From IMG/VR virus record IMGVR_UViG_3300005935_000106, positions 1 through 26,863 of that record: 26,863 nucleotides of DNA. One strand, written 5' to 3'. Under the pieces are notes generated by a model, which was given only the letters and a program-made list of their open reading frames with translations, made no database searches and had not been told where the DNA came from. This DNA comes from a virus. Both the position numbers and the translations under genes were made by a program. Of this stretch, positions 6,898 to 26,108 are shown one piece after another (position 1 is the first letter of the stretch; every line of letters starts with the position of its first letter).

Positions 6898-6905
6898 TTT
6901 ATATA
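6898..6905 (+). promoter_or_regulatory. TATA box of the 29-codon gene
   Basis: TTTATATA immediately follows the stop of the minor head gene and is centred about 26 bases before the ATG at 6927, matching the leaderless promoter layout seen elsewhere here. Confidence 0.6.
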
Positions 6906-6926
6906 CTTGTTATACAGTGTTTTACT

Positions 6927-7016
6927 ATGGAAACAGATAATACGCAAAAAGAAATTATAAATGAATTTAAAGAAGCATTAGATGATCTTAAGGATAATAA
7001 GTTCATAGAATGCTGA
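6927..7016 (+). CDS. 29-residue acidic mini-protein
   Basis: A 29-codon frame has its own TATA box at the correct leaderless distance. The peptide is one predicted amphipathic helix (KEIINEFKEALDDLKDNKFI) with a terminal Cys. It is followed by a short T run and then the promoter of the protease gene, so it looks like a single-gene transcript within the head module. No family recognised; the KEFKEALDDL pattern is reminiscent of short helical antitoxin-like or assembly peptides, but that is speculation. Confidence 0.45.
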   Translation: METDNTQKEIINEFKEALDDLKDNKFIEC

Positions 7017-7061: not shown

Positions 7062-8189
7062 ATGGATGAGTATTTCGATAGTAATTTAAGAGTTGAAGGT
7101 TTTGATTTTGAAGAAACTGATAATAAATTCATAATTTTCTCAGTACCTATTTTAGCAGAAATGGTGCAAGATTATAATGATGGCATGGTTCTTAAAGATG
7201 CAACCGAGATTAAAAAAGTGGTTGTTCAAAACATACCGCTTACAATGGTTGACGAATCCCCATCACATCCCGAATTTCTAACTGGCGCAGAACCGTCTTA
7301 TGTTGCCGATGTGCAAGTTGGTTTTATGACAGAACCAACAAGATTAAAGTCTACTGCTGATGTTGCACATAAAAGATATGCGGATTTCATTATCGATAAT
7401 AACGATAAAACAAAAGTTCTTATTGACGATTATAAAAATGGCGGGTTTATTGATACAAGTATCGGTTTCAAATGTAAAGATGATAAAACCCCTGGAACTT
7501 TCAAAGGTAAAAAATACGATTATATTCAAAGAGATATTGTGTTAGATCATAATGCAATTCTCATAGATGCCCAAGGTCGAAAGGCTACGGGTAGAATGCC
7601 GAGTCCTATTGGTGGAATTGGCGCAGATTCAAACAATAAAAAAATACCGGGTGATAATATGTCTGAAGACATTAAAGAACTACAAAAAGATAATGCTGCC
7701 CTGAAAAAACAAATTGATGACTCTAATAAAAAATTAGAGAAAATTGAGGCTGATGCTAAACTTGCTAAAGAAAAAGCAGATGATGAAGCTGATGCAAAAA
7801 AAACTCAGGATGCTAAAACTGTTGAAGAACAGAAAACAAGAATGGATGAACTTACAATCGAACGGGATAATTTCAAGAAAGAAATTGATTCCAAAGGTGT
7901 AGAGCTTCAGAAATTTAAAGATGCTGAAAAAGAAGTAATGGATGCAAAAAGAGACGCTCTTAAAAAAGCAGATCCAGACCATGCAGAACTTTACGATACA
8001 GCCTCAGAAGAGCTTATCACTAAGTTTGCTGATAAGTTGAATGAGAACAAAGACAGTAAATCCAAAAATATCGGTGCTGACATGATGCCAATTAGTAGGA
8101 GTGCTAATGTTGCTGGTGATAAACGGATGAAAAACTGGAAGGCTAACGGTAATGTAGAACCTTCTAAGAAAGACAAGGGTGATGAATAA
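7062..8189 (+). CDS. Prohead protease fused to scaffold (DUF2213-like)
   Basis: This 375-residue protein has two parts. Residues about 10-185 resemble the DUF2213 type of prohead protease: VDESPSHPEF near 63-72, a segment FIDTSIGFKC around Ser133, then DYIQRDIVLDHNAILIDAQGR with His163 and a trailing Gly-Arg. The Ser and His are the likely catalytic pair. Residues about 200-340 are a long, charged coiled coil rich in Lys, Glu, Asp and Ala, as in scaffold proteins, and the tail is basic. The protease would clear the scaffold and trim head proteins during maturation. An internal start at codon 200 may make the scaffold alone. It lies directly upstream of the decoration-like and major capsid genes, the expected order. 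Catalytic residue choice is by eye. Confidence 0.8.
   Translation: MDEYFDSNLRVEGFDFEETDNKFIIFSVPILAEMVQDYNDGMVLKDATEIKKVVVQNIPLTMVDESPSHPEFLTGAEPSYVADVQVGFMTEPTRLKSTADVAHKRYADFIIDNNDKTKVLIDDYKNGGFIDTSIGFKCKDDKTPGTFKGKKYDYIQRDIVLDHNAILIDAQGRKATGRMPSPIGGIGADSNNKKIPGDNMSEDIKELQKDNAALKKQIDDSNKKLEKIEADAKLAKEKADDEADAKKTQDAKTVEEQKTRMDELTIERDNFKKEIDSKGVELQKFKDAEKEVMDAKRDALKKADPDHAELYDTASEELITKFADKLNENKDSKSKNIGADMMPISRSANVAGDKRMKNWKANGNVEPSKKDKGDE
7659..8189 (+). CDS. Likely internally started scaffold protein (nested)
   Basis: Inside the protease-scaffold gene, in the same frame, Met200 (MSEDIKELQKDN) is preceded by GGGTGATAAT, which contains the GGTGAT ribosome binding core at a spacing of four to five bases. 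It falls exactly at the junction between the protease domain and the coiled coil. The product would be 176 residues of scaffold alone. Nested protease/scaffold genes of this kind are established in phages such as lambda (C and Nu3). Expression as a separate protein is inference. Confidence 0.55.
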   Translation: MSEDIKELQKDNAALKKQIDDSNKKLEKIEADAKLAKEKADDEADAKKTQDAKTVEEQKTRMDELTIERDNFKKEIDSKGVELQKFKDAEKEVMDAKRDALKKADPDHAELYDTASEELITKFADKLNENKDSKSKNIGADMMPISRSANVAGDKRMKNWKANGNVEPSKKDKGDE

Positions 8190-8602: not shown

Positions 8603-8612
8603 GGTGACTAAG

Positions 8613-19313: not shown

Positions 19314-22007
19314 ATGAAATCTAAATTAATACTTGGACTTGTATTTATTATTTTATTATTTTCTTCTTTTTCGTTAGCTTACGATCCTTATGCATTCCAG
19401 TTTCTTAATTCATCAGATGATACTGTTGTTACTATTGGCGGAGAGCATTATGGTGATATTAATGCTACTAGAAATATAATGACCGCTTCTTTAAATGTTA
19501 CAGATATTGGGTATTTTGGAAGTGGTGATTATCAAGCAATTATCCCTTATAGCGAGTTTGGTTTAGCAGGTTTTTTTTCAAATGGATCAGATAATTGGGT
19601 AACATTAGGAGGTTGGCAATATGGCTTAGATGTTGGCGGTGATGCATCTTTTAACAAGAACCTTGCAGTAGATAATTCAATTCATGCACAAAATGATATT
19701 ACAGCAAATGACCAATTAATAGGTGGAAGTGTGACTGCAAATTGGGCTTCTTTGGGTAGTTTTTATACTAACTATTTATTTTCTAATTTTTCAGGACCTG
19801 TTACTATCTATGATTATCTTAATGTTACAAATACAACGTATCTTGATAATGATAAATGTTCTGCAGGTGATTTTTTGACTTCAGATACTACTACTGGTGA
19901 AGTGAGTTGTGATACTCCTACAAGTGGTGGCACAAGTTATTGGAATCAATCTGATGATTATTTATTTCCGATAAACCTTAGTAAAAAGGTTGGAATTGGA
20001 ACAAATAGTCCGGACGTAAACTTAGATATTAATGGATCAGGGGATGTAGAAGTAACCATTCAAAGTTCAGATAATAATGCAATATTAAATTTAGAAGCTG
20101 ATACCGGAAATACTGCTTCAGGTTCTGCACAAGACATACGTATAAACTTGCTAACTGGCGGTACTAAGAAAGCAGAAATGACATGGATTGAACAAGATGA
20201 TGCCTTTGCAATCAATGCTTATACATTTGATAATAATCAGTTTGTTGTCTCTGGTACTAATAAGCGTGTAGGTATTGGAACATTCACTCCTTCTGAAGCT
20301 TTAGAAGTTAATGGAAATATCAAGATCACTGGTAATGGAATCATAGACGATAATTTAACTGTTAATGGGTTTGTAGGAATTAATACAACTAGCCCTACTT
20401 CAGCATTAGAAGTTAATGGTATATTAACATTTACAAATGAATCACCTACAGGAGTAGCAAAAGGGATACACTTTTTTGATGATTTTAAGTATGGGATTGA
20501 AGCAAATACATTTGAGGATGCAGAAACTGATTATGGTATGTGGTATCCTTATCTTGCTATTGAATCTAATTTTCTAATAATAAGTAGTAATGCTACTGAA
20601 AGACGTCAGAATATATTTGGTAATTTTGAATCTCAAGCAATTTTTGTATCTTCTAGTACCGGTACAACATTACAACTTTACGGTGATGATCCTTATGGCT
20701 CTGACCGTGAAGCAATAGTATTACACCCAGGTGGTCAATCTACATTTTCTCACGGAGATGTAATTGTAGGTCCTGGTGGTGGATATGGTGCATTCACAGT
20801 TCATGGAAACACGGCTTTAAAAGATAATTTAACTGTTGATGGACTTATGGCACAAAATGCGTACGGTGTGGTTAATAAATTTGGAAGTCAAAATCCAAGT
20901 TTTAATCATGTTTATTCAACTGCTAGTGCAGGATTTGCGTTTAACAAAGATATAGATCTAGTCAGTTCAGGAGGTTATAATTTCGGTTCTGCATCGTATT
21001 ATGCGAATGGAGTAAATTATAAAGTATTATACGATAGAGGTTGTATTGTTGATATAGATTCGGAGGAAGCAAAGAACCTTATTAAAAATTTAGGCACAAA
21101 ACGAATTTCACAAACAGAAGCTATCGAGAAGATTGCTAATAATGATTTTATTAATAATACTATGTTTGATATGCAATTACGTAGAGATAAACAACTCGAT
21201 AAAATGAAAGCTGTTGGTAAGAAAAAACTTGCCGAATTATCATTAGATGAAGTAGAAGCTGTTCGAGATTTAAACGATCAAAGTTTAGCAATAACAAGTA
21301 AATCTTCAGGTCTCAGTGCAGAAGAAAAATTTGAAGTTGCAGCAGTAATAAAAGAAGATTTCAAAACATATAAGGATTATGCACTTAATGAAGTTGAAGC
21401 TGTACCCTTGACAGAAGAAGAAGAGATTGATGATATTGCGAAACTATTCGCATCACGAAGATATAGAACAATAGACGTAGATGGAGAAATTTATTATGAA
21501 GGTCTTGCAGATTCTGATGGCAAAGAAGACATGCCATTATTAGACTATTCTGATTTTCCAGATTATATATATGATGACGGAACTTATATCGCAGAAAATG
21601 ATATGTATGATGATGCAGGAGATACTTCTAAATTATTATATAGAAAAGGCGATAAAGTACAAGGCAGAGAAGGAGTAGATGTTTCAGGAATTATAGCCAT
21701 GCTTATTTCGACAAGTAAAGCGGTAATTTACGAGAACGAAGAATTACTCAGTCGTGTTGAAGAATTAGAAAAAGAATTATCATTGAAAAAATTAGAAGAT
21801 AGAATAAAAGTATTAGAAGAAATGTTAGATGTTAAAGAACTATCTCCTACAGAATTCAACTGTTTTGATGAAAAGCATATACTATCAGATACTAGAGAAT
21901 GTCCTGGTGGACTTAGTAGTATAAATGATGACGGGTTACAAACTAGATGCTATAATGAAATATCAGGTTGGTATGTGTGTAGTTATGGATGGATGAAAGC
22001 AGGATGA
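19314..22007 (+). CDS. Exported fibre-like adhesin with VGIGT beta repeats and C-terminal coiled coil
   Basis: This 897-residue protein begins with a clear signal peptide: Lys at 2 and 4, hydrophobic core LILGLVFIILLFSSFS, cleavage likely after Ala22 in SLA-YDP. After this come NVT/NAT/NTT-rich beta segments, and three copies of a fibre repeat starting KVGIGTNSP (about 223), RVGIGTFTP (318) and FVGINTTSP (352), each followed by a strand ending in 'l-x-x-N-G'. This repeat is usual in tail fibres that end in self-chaperoning domains. Residues about 580-720 are charged and helical. A leucine-heptad coiled coil lies near 795-840, and the last 50 residues carry four Cys, as in an extracellular disulfide-bonded cap. 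The signal peptide is odd for a virion fibre assembled in the cytoplasm. It could be a surface protein displayed on the infected cell, or a captured host adhesin. Confidence 0.75.
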   Translation: MKSKLILGLVFIILLFSSFSLAYDPYAFQFLNSSDDTVVTIGGEHYGDINATRNIMTASLNVTDIGYFGSGDYQAIIPYSEFGLAGFFSNGSDNWVTLGGWQYGLDVGGDASFNKNLAVDNSIHAQNDITANDQLIGGSVTANWASLGSFYTNYLFSNFSGPVTIYDYLNVTNTTYLDNDKCSAGDFLTSDTTTGEVSCDTPTSGGTSYWNQSDDYLFPINLSKKVGIGTNSPDVNLDINGSGDVEVTIQSSDNNAILNLEADTGNTASGSAQDIRINLLTGGTKKAEMTWIEQDDAFAINAYTFDNNQFVVSGTNKRVGIGTFTPSEALEVNGNIKITGNGIIDDNLTVNGFVGINTTSPTSALEVNGILTFTNESPTGVAKGIHFFDDFKYGIEANTFEDAETDYGMWYPYLAIESNFLIISSNATERRQNIFGNFESQAIFVSSSTGTTLQLYGDDPYGSDREAIVLHPGGQSTFSHGDVIVGPGGGYGAFTVHGNTALKDNLTVDGLMAQNAYGVVNKFGSQNPSFNHVYSTASAGFAFNKDIDLVSSGGYNFGSASYYANGVNYKVLYDRGCIVDIDSEEAKNLIKNLGTKRISQTEAIEKIANNDFINNTMFDMQLRRDKQLDKMKAVGKKKLAELSLDEVEAVRDLNDQSLAITSKSSGLSAEEKFEVAAVIKEDFKTYKDYALNEVEAVPLTEEEEIDDIAKLFASRRYRTIDVDGEIYYEGLADSDGKEDMPLLDYSDFPDYIYDDGTYIAENDMYDDAGDTSKLLYRKGDKVQGREGVDVSGIIAMLISTSKAVIYENEELLSRVEELEKELSLKKLEDRIKVLEEMLDVKELSPTEFNCFDEKHILSDTRECPGGLSSINDDGLQTRCYNEISGWYVCSYGWMKAG

Positions 22008-23028: not shown

Positions 23029-23302
23029 AGAACTCACACACATACATTATGATTCAGATGCATATAAATCGATTCTAAGAGGCTTTAAAGAAAAGCTACC
23101 CAATATATACAATTCATTGCAAAGCCTTATTCGTGGGCTAGAAAACGCAACACAATCGAAAGATACGGTGTTATTCAATCATTTAGAGTTCTTATATGCA
23201 CACGCAATGGGATATTACCAATTTTTGATCACAGAACATGAAAAAAACGTATTCAATAATATCTATATTACGCAAAGAGATGCTTTCAAAAAGAAAAAAT
23301 AA
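23015..23302 (+). CDS. Hypothetical helical protein
   Basis: The protein is 95 residues from the ATG at 23015, overlapping the nuclease-like gene by 14 bases; the in-frame TTG at 23009 is possible. It is predicted mostly helical (YKSILRGFKEKLPNIYNSLQ, LFNHLEFLYAHAMGYYQFLI), with His and Tyr in the second helix, and ends in four Lys after QRDAF. No family recognised. It is the last gene before the palindrome-rich control region, whose first repeat begins within its stop codon. Confidence 0.55.
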   Translation: MLDLEELTHIHYDSDAYKSILRGFKEKLPNIYNSLQSLIRGLENATQSKDTVLFNHLEFLYAHAMGYYQFLITEHEKNVFNNIYITQRDAFKKKK

Positions 23303-23337
23303 TACGTATGATTTGGTGTTTTGTACGTATTGGCGCC
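23301..23337 (+). repeat. Palindrome repeat A with GGCGCC box
   Basis: A 30-bp unit (23301-23330) begins AATACGTATGATTT and ends TGTTTTGTACGTAT, so its ends form an inverted pair ATACGTA...TACGTAT. It is followed by TGGCGCC. The unit recurs at 23466-23495 with 28 of 30 bases the same. Confidence 0.9.
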
Positions 23338-23375
23338 TGAACACCCCCGCCCCTTGACTTCTTATGGAAAACTCT

Positions 23376-23388
23376 ATTTCTCTTTTTT
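23376..23388 (+). terminator. T-rich terminator after the helical protein gene
   Basis: A pyrimidine run ending in six T residues (23383-23388) lies 75 bases past the last stop, inside the palindrome region. It would end the transcript that begins near 22312. Confidence 0.45.
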
Positions 23389-23404
23389 GGATGTTTTAAT
23401 AGTG

Positions 23405-23425
23405 TACGTACGTACTACGTACGTA
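23405..23425 (+). repeat. Double TACGTACGTA palindrome
   Basis: TACGTACGTA occurs twice, separated by one C. Each copy is its own reverse complement, so the site presents overlapping TACGTA half-sites on both strands, in the middle between repeats A and B. Confidence 0.9.
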
Positions 23426-23438
23426 TAGAAAAAAAAGC

Positions 23439-23459
23439 ATTAAATATATAATATATATA
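23439..23459. other. AT-only tract beside repeat B
   Basis: About 20 bases of only A and T, beginning ATTAAATATATAATATATA, adjoin the GGCGCC box of repeat B. It could be a DNA unwinding element of an origin or an extra TATA box. I see no gene placed correctly for a promoter here. Confidence 0.4.
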
Positions 23460-23495
23460 GGCGCCAATACGTATGATTTATTGTTTTGTACGTAT
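23460..23495 (+). repeat. Palindrome repeat B with GGCGCC box
   Basis: GGCGCC followed by the same 30-bp unit as repeat A. Because the box is on the other side of the unit, GGCGCCAATACGTA here is the exact reverse complement of TACGTATTGGCGCC at 23324-23337. The sequence upstream of the next promoter therefore holds both a direct and an inverted relation to repeat A. Confidence 0.9.
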
Positions 23496-23521: not shown

Positions 23522-23533
23522 AATATTTAAATA
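23522..23533 (+). promoter_or_regulatory. TATA box downstream of the palindrome array
   Basis: AATATTTAAATA is centred about 29 bases before the ATG at 23557 and starts 26 bases after repeat B ends. A protein bound at repeat B would sit just upstream of the basal transcription factors. Confidence 0.6.
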
Positions 23534-23556
23534 TGAATACACTCTTAATTATTTTT

Positions 23557-23790
23557 ATGAACGATACGAATAAACTCGAAAAGATCGAGATTTCTAAAAA
23601 TAACGGTAATTTTTATTATACTGGGACTGTTGAATCTCCGGATAAAGATGGTTTTGTAACTATTAAAACTGTGCGTGGTGAAGTTCTTAAATTCAGAAAA
23701 GAACAAATAATGCAAAGAAGACGAATTGATACTAAATTAGAGGATGATACGAATGGGAAAATCTCACAAAACAATAAGTATTCCGGATGA
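23557..23790 (+). CDS. Small beta-barrel-like protein (Sm/SH3-like candidate)
   Basis: The ATG at 23557 fits the promoter distance; an in-frame ATG at 23533 lies inside the TATA box and would not be on the mRNA. The 77-residue product has an early strand set, KIEISKNNGNFYYTGTVESP, a turn PDKDG, then FVTIKTVRGEVLKFRKEQI. This 'Y-x-G-x-V-x-x-x-d-x-x-G-x-V-x-I-k-x-x-x-G-e-x-l-x-f-x-x-x-x-I' pattern is the five-strand small barrel seen in Sm-like and related nucleic-acid-binding proteins. The last 20 residues overlap the next gene. The assignment is a fold guess only. Confidence 0.5.
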   Translation: MNDTNKLEKIEISKNNGNFYYTGTVESPDKDGFVTIKTVRGEVLKFRKEQIMQRRRIDTKLEDDTNGKISQNNKYSG

Positions 23791-24151
23791 TATTTCTCAA
23801 GATATACAAAAACGGAAGGAAGAGTGCAGCTTTAATTTTTCAGATTGGGTTGAAAAGATATATAGAGATTCTTTCATGAGTATTGATGATAAAAAACGTG
23901 AGATTGCAGAGTCTGAAAAAAGAATAATACTTCTAAAAGATGAAATCGATCAAATAGAAATTCGTAAAGAAACATTTGGTAGTTCTTTAACACGTGATGA
24001 GCTTAGATTCATAAAACAAATCCCTAAATTATTATTTGAAGGAAAAGAATTAGAACCGTTATGTACTCGTTTTAATATTACATTTAAGAGAAAATTCACA
24101 AAACAGGAATTGAAATCATATGTTAAGTTCTATAGTAAAAAATCAAGCTGA
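23753..24151 (+). CDS. Ribbon-helix-helix DNA-binding protein with coiled coil
   Basis: The 132-residue protein starts at ATG 23753 (MGKSHKTISIPDD); ATG 23744 in frame is also possible. Residues 6-30 follow the ribbon-helix-helix form: strand KTISIPDD, helix ISQDIQKRKEECS, then FNFSDWVEKIYRDSF as the second helix. Such domains dimerise and bind short palindromes. The rest has a charged coiled coil (REIAESEKRIILLKDEIDQI) and a helical C-terminus rich in Lys. It lies in the first operon after the TACGTA palindromes, which would be natural operators for it. Autoregulation is therefore likely but not shown. Confidence 0.65.
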   Translation: MGKSHKTISIPDDISQDIQKRKEECSFNFSDWVEKIYRDSFMSIDDKKREIAESEKRIILLKDEIDQIEIRKETFGSSLTRDELRFIKQIPKLLFEGKELEPLCTRFNITFKRKFTKQELKSYVKFYSKKSS

Positions 24152-24536
24152 TGTTAAGAAATTAAGATATATCTATATTATAGATGTTGATAATAGAGGC
24201 AACAAGAGTAAGTTTTACGGTATTAAATTATGTCATTATGTGGGACAAACCGATGATATTATCAGAAGATTGAAACAACATATCCTGTGTTTGAATAGTA
24301 AATTCCTCTCATATAATTTCAGAAATGCTCAGAAGAAATTAGTTTATGTTGATTATATATATGGTACTGAATATGAAGCCATAGAGTTAGAAGTTAAATT
24401 AAAAATAATGAAGCGAGATAAGAAAATAGATTTGATTTCTTCTGAACAGAATAAATTGATTAAGTATGTGCCGTTGAAAGCCATAATTTTAAAGAAATAT
24501 CATAAAGATGAAGAACAAATATGTATTAGAATGTGA
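24120..24536 (+). CDS. GIY-YIG family nuclease
   Basis: This 138-residue protein shows the GIY-YIG core: YIYII at residues 17-21 (first motif), a longer than usual insert, then HYVGQTDDIIRRLKQH at 39-54 with the second motif Tyr40-Val-Gly, Arg49/Arg50 and His54, and the catalytic Glu in the segment YEAIELE at about 85-91. The family cuts DNA with one metal ion and includes homing, repair and phage enzymes. No DNA-binding extension of the homing type is seen; a short basic C-terminal end follows. The start overlaps the preceding gene by 32 bases and there is no later start codon before the first motif. It neighbours a DNA methyltransferase, so it might be the matching nuclease, but a general viral nuclease is as likely. 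Confidence 0.75.
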   Translation: MLSSIVKNQADVKKLRYIYIIDVDNRGNKSKFYGIKLCHYVGQTDDIIRRLKQHILCLNSKFLSYNFRNAQKKLVYVDYIYGTEYEAIELEVKLKIMKRDKKIDLISSEQNKLIKYVPLKAIILKKYHKDEEQICIRM

Positions 24537-24542
24537 TTGAAA

Positions 24543-25901
24543 GTGGAAAATAAAATAAGAATGTTTGAGGGATGTGCGGGTTATGGTGGCGGATCGTTTG
24601 GATTAAAGAAAGCAGGAATACAATTTGAGTGTGTTGGCTATTCAGAGATTGATAAGTACGCAATACAATGCTATGAACATAACCATAGAGAAGTTGTTGA
24701 TGATTGGGTTCCATATAATGGCTCAAAACGATTTATGGGAACAATGAAAATTCCTAAGAATTATGGTAATATATCTCTAATAAATCCAGAAGATATTCCT
24801 GATTTTGATTTATTCTTAGCGGGGTTCCCATGCCAATCATTTAGTATTGCAGGTAAAAGAGAAGGCTTTGAATCTAAAAAAACAGGCAATATATTCTTTG
24901 ATATATGTAAAATACTAAACCATAAGAAACCTGGGTATGTCGTATTAGAAAATGTGGCAGGTATCTTAAGTCATGATAATGGTAAAACTCATAAAACAGT
25001 TTTAGATACATTAAAGAAAATAGGTTATGGTGTGGCGTGGAAATGTCTTAATTCTAAAAATTATGGGATTCCTCAGAATAGAGAACGTGTCTGGTATGTG
25101 TGTAAATTAGGCGGTTGGGATTTCATGGAGTTTACGTTTCCCGAGAAAGAGAAATTGAAATTAAAACTTAAAGATATTCTTGAAGATGAAGTTGATGAGA
25201 AGTATTATCTGAAAGAAGAAACTGTAAAACAATTATTACCAAACCAAGATGTATCGTATTGTATTGATGCTAATTATTTCAAGGGGACAAATATAAAAGG
25301 GTTTATCGAAAAAAAAAGATGGCAAATTATTCAAGTAAATAATCCAAAGCATTCTAATGATAGATTATATTCAGAAAAAGGAATAAGCCCAACATTAAAT
25401 GCTATGCAAGGTGGAAACAGACAACCGTTCATAGTAGCGTCGCGAGGAAGAAATCCTAAGGATCCTTCAGATAGAACAACGGGAAGTCCTACAGAACAAA
25501 GACTAGAACCGCAGACAGACGGGACGAGTAATTGCTTATCAACAGTTCAGAAAGATAATTATGTATGTGTTAAGAATGCAACAGCTAAAAGGTATCAAGA
25601 AGTAAAACCTGGCGATGGAATAAACCTCGAACAACCAAATTCTGAAACAAGGCGTGGAAGAGTACAATCGCAATCTGTTGGTACATTGCAAACAAATGAC
25701 CAACGTGACGTATTAACTGAAGATATGAGAATAAGAAAGCTTACACCGACCGAGTGTTTCAGACTCATGGGGTTCTTAGATGACGGAATAAACCTAGAAG
25801 GATTATCAAATTCTCAACGCTATAAATTAGCTGGGAACGGTTGGGATATTAATTTAGTAAGCAAGATATTTAAGAGATTATTTAGTAATAAATTTCAATA
25901 A
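24543..25901 (+). CDS. DNA (cytosine-5)-methyltransferase
   Basis: The protein is 452 residues from the GTG at 24543, which has GTGAT five bases upstream; the TTG at 24537 is an alternative. Motif I is FEGCAGYGGGSFGL (8-21) for SAM binding, motif IV FPCQSFS with catalytic Cys97, motif VI LENV (135-138), motif VIII QNRERVW (178-184), then a variable target recognition region, and motifs IX RKLTPTECFRLMGF and X KLAGNGWDINLV at the end. All catalytic motifs are intact. The recognition region contains GRNPKDPSDRTTGSPTEQRL, a segment I know from many phage C5 methyltransferases of bacteria, so the gene probably moved between virus groups. It likely protects viral DNA from host restriction. The target site cannot be read from sequence. 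Confidence 0.92.
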   Translation: MENKIRMFEGCAGYGGGSFGLKKAGIQFECVGYSEIDKYAIQCYEHNHREVVDDWVPYNGSKRFMGTMKIPKNYGNISLINPEDIPDFDLFLAGFPCQSFSIAGKREGFESKKTGNIFFDICKILNHKKPGYVVLENVAGILSHDNGKTHKTVLDTLKKIGYGVAWKCLNSKNYGIPQNRERVWYVCKLGGWDFMEFTFPEKEKLKLKLKDILEDEVDEKYYLKEETVKQLLPNQDVSYCIDANYFKGTNIKGFIEKKRWQIIQVNNPKHSNDRLYSEKGISPTLNAMQGGNRQPFIVASRGRNPKDPSDRTTGSPTEQRLEPQTDGTSNCLSTVQKDNYVCVKNATAKRYQEVKPGDGINLEQPNSETRRGRVQSQSVGTLQTNDQRDVLTEDMRIRKLTPTECFRLMGFLDDGINLEGLSNSQRYKLAGNGWDINLVSKIFKRLFSNKFQ

Positions 25902-25902
25902 G

Positions 25903-25910
25903 TTTAAATA
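25903..25910 (+). promoter_or_regulatory. TATA box of the small RNA
   Basis: TTTAAATA just past the methyltransferase stop is centred about 26 bases before 25932, five bases ahead of the first stem of the structured RNA. There is no coding frame at this distance, so the promoter points to an RNA product. Confidence 0.6.
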
Positions 25911-25931: not shown

Positions 25932-26024
25932 TCCAAGGGGTCGGTTGGGGAACTCATGATGTAAAGGGCAACCCGGTATTTCTTAGGAATTATCACCTCC
26001 AAGTACCCGACCCCGCCTTTTTTC
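25932..26024 (+). ncRNA. Small structured RNA with anti-Shine-Dalgarno sequence
   Basis: An 8-bp closing stem, GGGGTCGG at 25937-25944 with CCGACCCC at 26007-26014, encloses about 60 bases and is followed directly by a T-rich terminator. A TATA box at 25903-25910 is at the right distance for a start near 25932. The inside includes ATCACCTCC at 25992-26000, identical to the 3' end of archaeal 16S rRNA that pairs with ribosome binding sites, and a weak inner helix CTTAGG with CCT..AAG that would partly cover it. It is GC-rich compared with flanks. It is not a tRNA: no T-loop and no D-arm pattern. It may pair in trans with GGTGAT sites of viral mRNAs, or in cis with the GGAGGTTGAT site at 26095-26104 if transcription reads through. 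Function is inference; the structure and motif are directly visible. Confidence 0.65.
26016..26024 (+). terminator. Terminator of the small RNA
   Basis: CCTTTTTTC directly follows the closing stem of the small RNA. Stem plus T run would end the transcript in either domain of life. Confidence 0.6.
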
Positions 26025-26038
26025 TATTAAAAAACGAA

Positions 26039-26053
26039 ATATTTATATATAAG
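26039..26053 (+). promoter_or_regulatory. TATA box of the zinc-finger gene cluster
   Basis: The run ATATTTATATATAAG is strongly TATA-like. A start near 26072 would give a leader of about 35 bases that contains GGAGGTTGAT (26095-26104), the binding site of the first gene. Confidence 0.6.
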
Positions 26054-26108
26054 TATGTTGTATAATATACAAGAACTTAAAGATTATGCAACTTGGAGGT
26101 TGATGAAT

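Follow-up and report, generated by a model that had tools for sequence, protein, structure and literature searches.

Background

Does a virus encode a small RNA (sRNA) that carries, letter for letter, the anti-Shine-Dalgarno (anti-SD) tail of 16S rRNA, and with what would such an RNA pair? The question is raised by positions 25932-26024 of the IMG/VR virus record IMGVR_UViG_3300005935_000106, the whole 26,863 nucleotides (nt) of which form the window analysed here, where a compact element stands between the gene of a C5-cytosine methyltransferase (MTase) and a zinc-finger operon. The 26.9 kb record holds the gene set of a head-tail virus (terminase, portal, head protease, major capsid and tape measure). 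A preliminary description of the locus had proposed a viral sRNA that blocks ribosome binding on many mRNAs at once or serves as a decoy of the 16S tail. The reading we favour, tentatively and with rather less than even confidence, is a narrower one: the element would be an orphan candidate sRNA of the antisense type, two segments of which would mask two ribosome-binding sites (RBSs) of the virus.

Results

The element is closed by a perfect 8-bp inverted repeat on the + strand, with arms GGGGTCGG (25937-25944) and CCGACCCC (26007-26014) lying 62 nt apart, and is followed by the T-run TTTTTT (26018-26023), the predicted terminator. A scan of both strands found this combination of an 8-bp GC-rich stem and a T-run a single time in the window; 60 dinucleotide shuffles gave a mean of 0.05, three of them holding one. 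No repeated copy of the element was found elsewhere in the window, and its GC content of about 50% compares with 34% for the window. Upstream stands a perfect TATA box (TTTAAATA, 25903-25910, + strand) after a purine-rich stretch resembling a B recognition element, and it starts 34 nt upstream of the closing stem. Box, stem and T-run are thus all as the preliminary description had them.

The pattern TTTAWATA occurs at seven sites on the + strand, and four of these lie in non-coding DNA, which makes up 7.3% of the window. Two of the perfect boxes, at 6898 and 23526, have an ATG at +29 (6927) and +31 (23557), respectively, and the genes starting there are apparently leaderless. We take these TATA/ATG pairs as evidence for archaeal-type promoters in the virus, and their distances therefore serve to calibrate the transcription start for the other two non-coding boxes. 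At the leaderless candidates themselves (6898-6929 and 23526-23559), the frame at 6927 comprises 29 codons and the second start lies at 23557 rather than at 23533. For the box at 25903 the calibrated start falls at the foot of the stem (about 25932-25935), a placement that makes an independent transcript of about 85 nt plausible (predicted extent 25935-26023, + strand, about 85-89 nt). Both the position of the element and the calibrated promoter geometry speak for a separate sRNA gene with promoter and terminator of its own, and to this extent the earlier proposal of a viral sRNA stands as a candidate.

The same position would also suit an element that is only the 3' end of the MTase mRNA, that is, a structured 3' untranslated region (UTR) with a terminator, in which the 16S-like nonamer ATCACCTCC and the RBS matches described below are coincidence. 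The MTase stop (25901) directly precedes the element at a distance of 35 nt, and the T-run closes the element. As a whole the fold is of ordinary stability (z = -1.24 for 25932-26024, -1.28 for 25935-26018, with 25-26 of 200 shuffles equally stable), although after GC correction it is about three standard deviations more stable than other 80-nt windows of the genome. The nonamer has an expectation of 0.11 in the window, and conservation was not found, both of which fit an mRNA end. However, an interior of 62 nt would be uncommon in a terminator, the stem lies as far from a perfect TATA box as the calibration predicts, and the MTase relatives, though distant, have no such stem or element behind the gene. 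We regard the plain mRNA end as doubtful, although it deserves to be taken seriously.

The RNA matches at least 10 contiguous nt at three places on the + strand of the window, one of which (24749-24760) lies in the MTase coding sequence; the other two are RBSs. Segment 1 (ACCCGGTATTT, 25971-25981) is the exact complement of the 11 nt at 7642-7652 (AAATACCGGGT), directly 5' of ATG 7659, and segment 2 (ACCTCCAAGT, 25995-26004) is the exact complement of the 10 nt at 26091-26100 (ACTTGGAGGT), 5' of ATG 26109 of the zinc-finger gene. We propose the former as a target in trans and the latter as a cis-adjacent one. Both matches, which the preliminary description had missed, reach past the SD core and are gene-specific. 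Complementarity to at least one target RBS, one feature of antisense sRNAs of the type of Methanosarcina mazei sRNA162, sRNA154 and sRNA41, is therefore present. The trans target belongs to gene 7062-8189, the product of which joins an N-terminal DUF2213 or head maturation protease part to a coiled-coil C-terminal part. ATG 7659 is an internal in-frame start, and because it is preceded by a strong SD (GGTGAT AAT ATG), a separate coiled-coil scaffold of 176 amino acids (aa) is probably translated from it.

Two or more RBS matches of at least 10 nt were obtained with 33 of 5000 shuffled RNAs, and with 52 of 5000 when the anti-SD was kept. An accessibility-aware scan (ungapped helices with opening costs, over the whole + strand, 333 sites) ranked 7642-7652 first and 26091-26100 fifth, and by raw helix energy they came third and second, respectively. 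Among 700 anti-SD-kept shuffles, 55 had an RBS at one of their two best sites and not one had RBSs at both. We consider this evidence for a two-RBS complementarity suggestive.

Several observations weigh against an antisense role. The RBS tests were devised after the match had been seen, and a p of about 0.01 is not strong; moreover, generic SD/anti-SD complementarity contributes to one of the two matches. In the predicted RNA most of either segment is base-paired (opening costs about 6 kcal/mol for segment 1 and about 3 kcal/mol for segment 2), so that the net interaction energies are modest, about -4 to -8 kcal/mol, and RNAcofold (minimum free energy dimer) favours the RNA's own fold. Furthermore, no homologue of the element came out of IMG/VR, the GTDB contigs, the phage records or Rfam, and hence no sign of covariation or conservation.

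Since the second target is the next gene, the element could instead be a cis leader of the zinc-finger operon, attenuator or riboswitch-like, in which read-through of the T-run would let ACCUCCAAGU pair with the RBS ACUUGGAGGU 86 nt later and shut the operon off. The shared strand, the adjacency and the exact 10-nt complement speak for such a leader, and the stem with its T-run looks like a terminated one. The operon, however, has a perfect TATA box of its own (TTTATATA, 26042-26049, + strand) with a start predicted from the calibrated distance at about 26071-26073, 3' of the element, and would therefore have no need of the RNA promoter; nor did Rfam return a riboswitch match. We thus hold the leader to be quite unlikely.

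The motif that had drawn attention to the locus, ATCACCTCC at 25992-26000 (+ strand), is indeed identical to the 16S anti-SD tail and has its sole exact copy in the window there. A first-order Markov model expects 0.022 copies on the + strand, 0.091 on the - strand and 0.11 on both; the single occurrence is mildly unusual, the motif having been picked post hoc. Bacterial 16S tails likewise hold AUCACCUCC, and bacterial 16S rRNA ends in the same nine letters, so that ATCACCTCC is not the archaeal hallmark that it had been taken for. In the predicted fold, CUCC (25997-26000) is paired with UUGGGG and AUC (25992-25994) is paired as well, which leaves just A25995 and, for the most part, C25996 open and keeps the anti-SD from being displayed; for seven of the nine motif bases the unpaired probability does not exceed 0.14. 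An exposed AUCACCUCC, which a 16S-tail decoy or a global anti-SD RNA needs, is hence absent from that fold. The heptamer GGGGAAC, which stands ahead of the 16S tail, is also present in the element; mimicry of 16S helix 45 was rejected, as the spacing differs (38 versus 10 nt) and the shared 7-mer is not significant.

These findings bear on the role first put forward, in which the RNA would block translation globally or act as a 16S-tail decoy, its anti-SD being open to many mRNAs or to the machinery of initiation. The exact 9-nt identity to the 16S tail and the use of GGTGAT or GGAGG by viral genes speak for it. GGAGG is found at 26095 as listed before, and GGTGAT at 7650, 9586, 11993 and 12538, at most one nucleotide from the listed positions, whereas the site given at 8604 reads GAGGTGAC. 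With CUCC and AUC predicted to be paired, however, the anti-SD core would be sequestered, and the SD-type matches to other genes are mostly short (6-8 nt), energetically unremarkable and, after opening costs, below many unrelated sites. General SD blocking would in addition hit the structural genes of the virus itself. This role is the least supported of all those considered, and we judge it highly improbable.

The predicted fold is compact and of tRNA-like size, with a long unpaired strand of 15 nt (25951-25965). These features would suit a structural or processing RNA of another kind, e.g. a guide-like or packaging RNA, to which the anti-SD and RBS matches would be incidental. We consider this rather unlikely, as no tRNA, tmRNA or Rfam family appeared near the element at E values up to 10 and C/D or H/ACA boxes were not seen by eye. 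A degraded coding sequence was also considered and rejected: a frame is open across the element (...GVGWGTHDVKGNPVFLRNYHLQVPDP...), but it lacks a start codon (ATG, GTG or TTG) and matched no protein.

The search for relatives was made at several levels. Rfam gave no match to E = 1 over the whole window; around the element, relaxing the limit to E = 10 added nothing beyond chance-level matches that fell far short of the gathering thresholds. ARAGORN reported no tRNA or tmRNA genes. Two patterns run against IMG/VR, one against GTDB contigs and blastn against phage records yielded no relative of the element among the records searched, from which those closest to this one may have been missing. 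The 14 IMG/VR matches to the two-part pattern and one Pantoea match to a 19-mer were dismissed, all lying inside long reading frames without a flanking stem, and an exact 20-base match that lies inside a tail-chaperone-like gene is best read as chance. A covariance model built from the single sequence found nothing in the loci examined or in 16 viral records, a one-sequence model being a weak test.

The virus and its neighbouring genes

The host of this tailed virus is probably an archaeon, which is supported by the leaderless-type TATA/ATG spacing and by a weak resemblance, short of the curated cut-off, between the second zinc-finger protein and the archaeal HVO_2753 family. The virus has no close relative in IMG/VR according to searches with neighbouring proteins: the capsid, portal and first zinc-finger proteins found no relatives, the second zinc-finger protein gave two unrelated short matches and the relatives of the terminase reach only about 27-31% identity. 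The MTase gene (24537-25901), directly 5' of the RNA element, is itself immediately preceded by a GIY-YIG nuclease-like gene (24120-24536), and the two are possibly a homing nuclease or a restriction-modification-like pair. The gene at 19314-22007 encodes a protein of 897 aa that begins like a signal peptide and contains GIGT-type repeats, and whose PHROG matches are all of unknown function; it is a candidate for a secreted or receptor-binding tail protein.

Two further non-coding regions are worth recording. The long left end (1-437) contains a GC-rich patch (58% GC at 229-288), and its fold is ordinary (z = -0.06 for 180-437). The region 23301-23495 carries a 30-nt direct repeat (AATACGTATGATTTGGTGTTTTGTACGTAT), the second copy of which is 93% identical and 165 nt away, together with a perfect 15-nt inverted repeat with GGCGCC (23324-23338/23459-23473) and, between them, a cluster of the palindrome TACGTACGTA. 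This region looks like an operator array or a replication origin.

Discussion

The promoter-like box, the stem, the T-run and the complementarities can be read directly from the DNA. For the two-segment antisense RNA that we tentatively prefer, we infer transcription, pairing in vivo, and repression with its timing. Positions 25935-26023 would be transcribed independently as a folded sRNA of an archaeal-type head-tail virus. Within it ACCUCCAAGU would cover the RBS of the adjacent zinc-finger operon (ATG 26109) and ACCCGGUAUUU the RBS of the scaffold start inside the head protease gene (ATG 7659), and pairing would lower translation from both. The 16S-like ATCACCTCC would then be a natural consequence of SD complementarity and not a mimic of 16S rRNA. 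A more ambitious form of this proposal, which we think unlikely, is that a dedicated two-segment antisense RNA couples head assembly, through the internal scaffold start, to the zinc-finger regulators in that it masks both RBSs; within the literature searched, it would be the first RBS-masking sRNA of an archaeal virus.

Little is known of small regulatory RNAs in archaeal viruses. If the proposal holds, the virus would set the dose of a scaffold made from an internal start by means of an antisense RNA, an idea that reporters for the two predicted target sites could test directly. Should the element not be expressed, it would be an example of a chance anti-SD look-alike at a structured 3' end.

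Comparison with known systems

By analogy, the nearest known system would be sRNA162 of M. mazei, which has two pairing segments, one masking in trans an RBS inside an overlapping reading frame and the other targeting the 5' UTR of its neighbour (PMC3510493). The candidate resembles it as a putative archaeal sRNA with two separate pairing segments, the start of one target inside another reading frame and a neighbouring gene as the other. Unlike the candidate, which is viral and known here from its sequence, sRNA162 is a host gene; its cis target is on the opposite strand, whereas the candidate shares its strand with the neighbour, and sRNA162 pairs in trans through a single-stranded segment, whereas the candidate's segments are partly structured. 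Two other intergenic archaeal sRNAs of M. mazei likewise mask RBSs: sRNA154 covers that of glnA2 by an anti-RBS sequence in its loop 2, and sRNA41 does so for RBSs of polycistronic mRNAs (PMC5867862). Archaeal sRNAs carrying an anti-SD-like motif are therefore not new; those RNAs are cellular and experimentally characterised, whereas the viral candidate is likened to them by mechanism. For a ribosome-directed role the nearest model is rancRNA_s194 of Haloferax volcanii, an archaeal sRNA that regulates translation by ribosome binding (PMC6104027), but it is not a 16S-tail mimic. The candidate would thus work like the known RBS-masking kind of archaeal sRNA.
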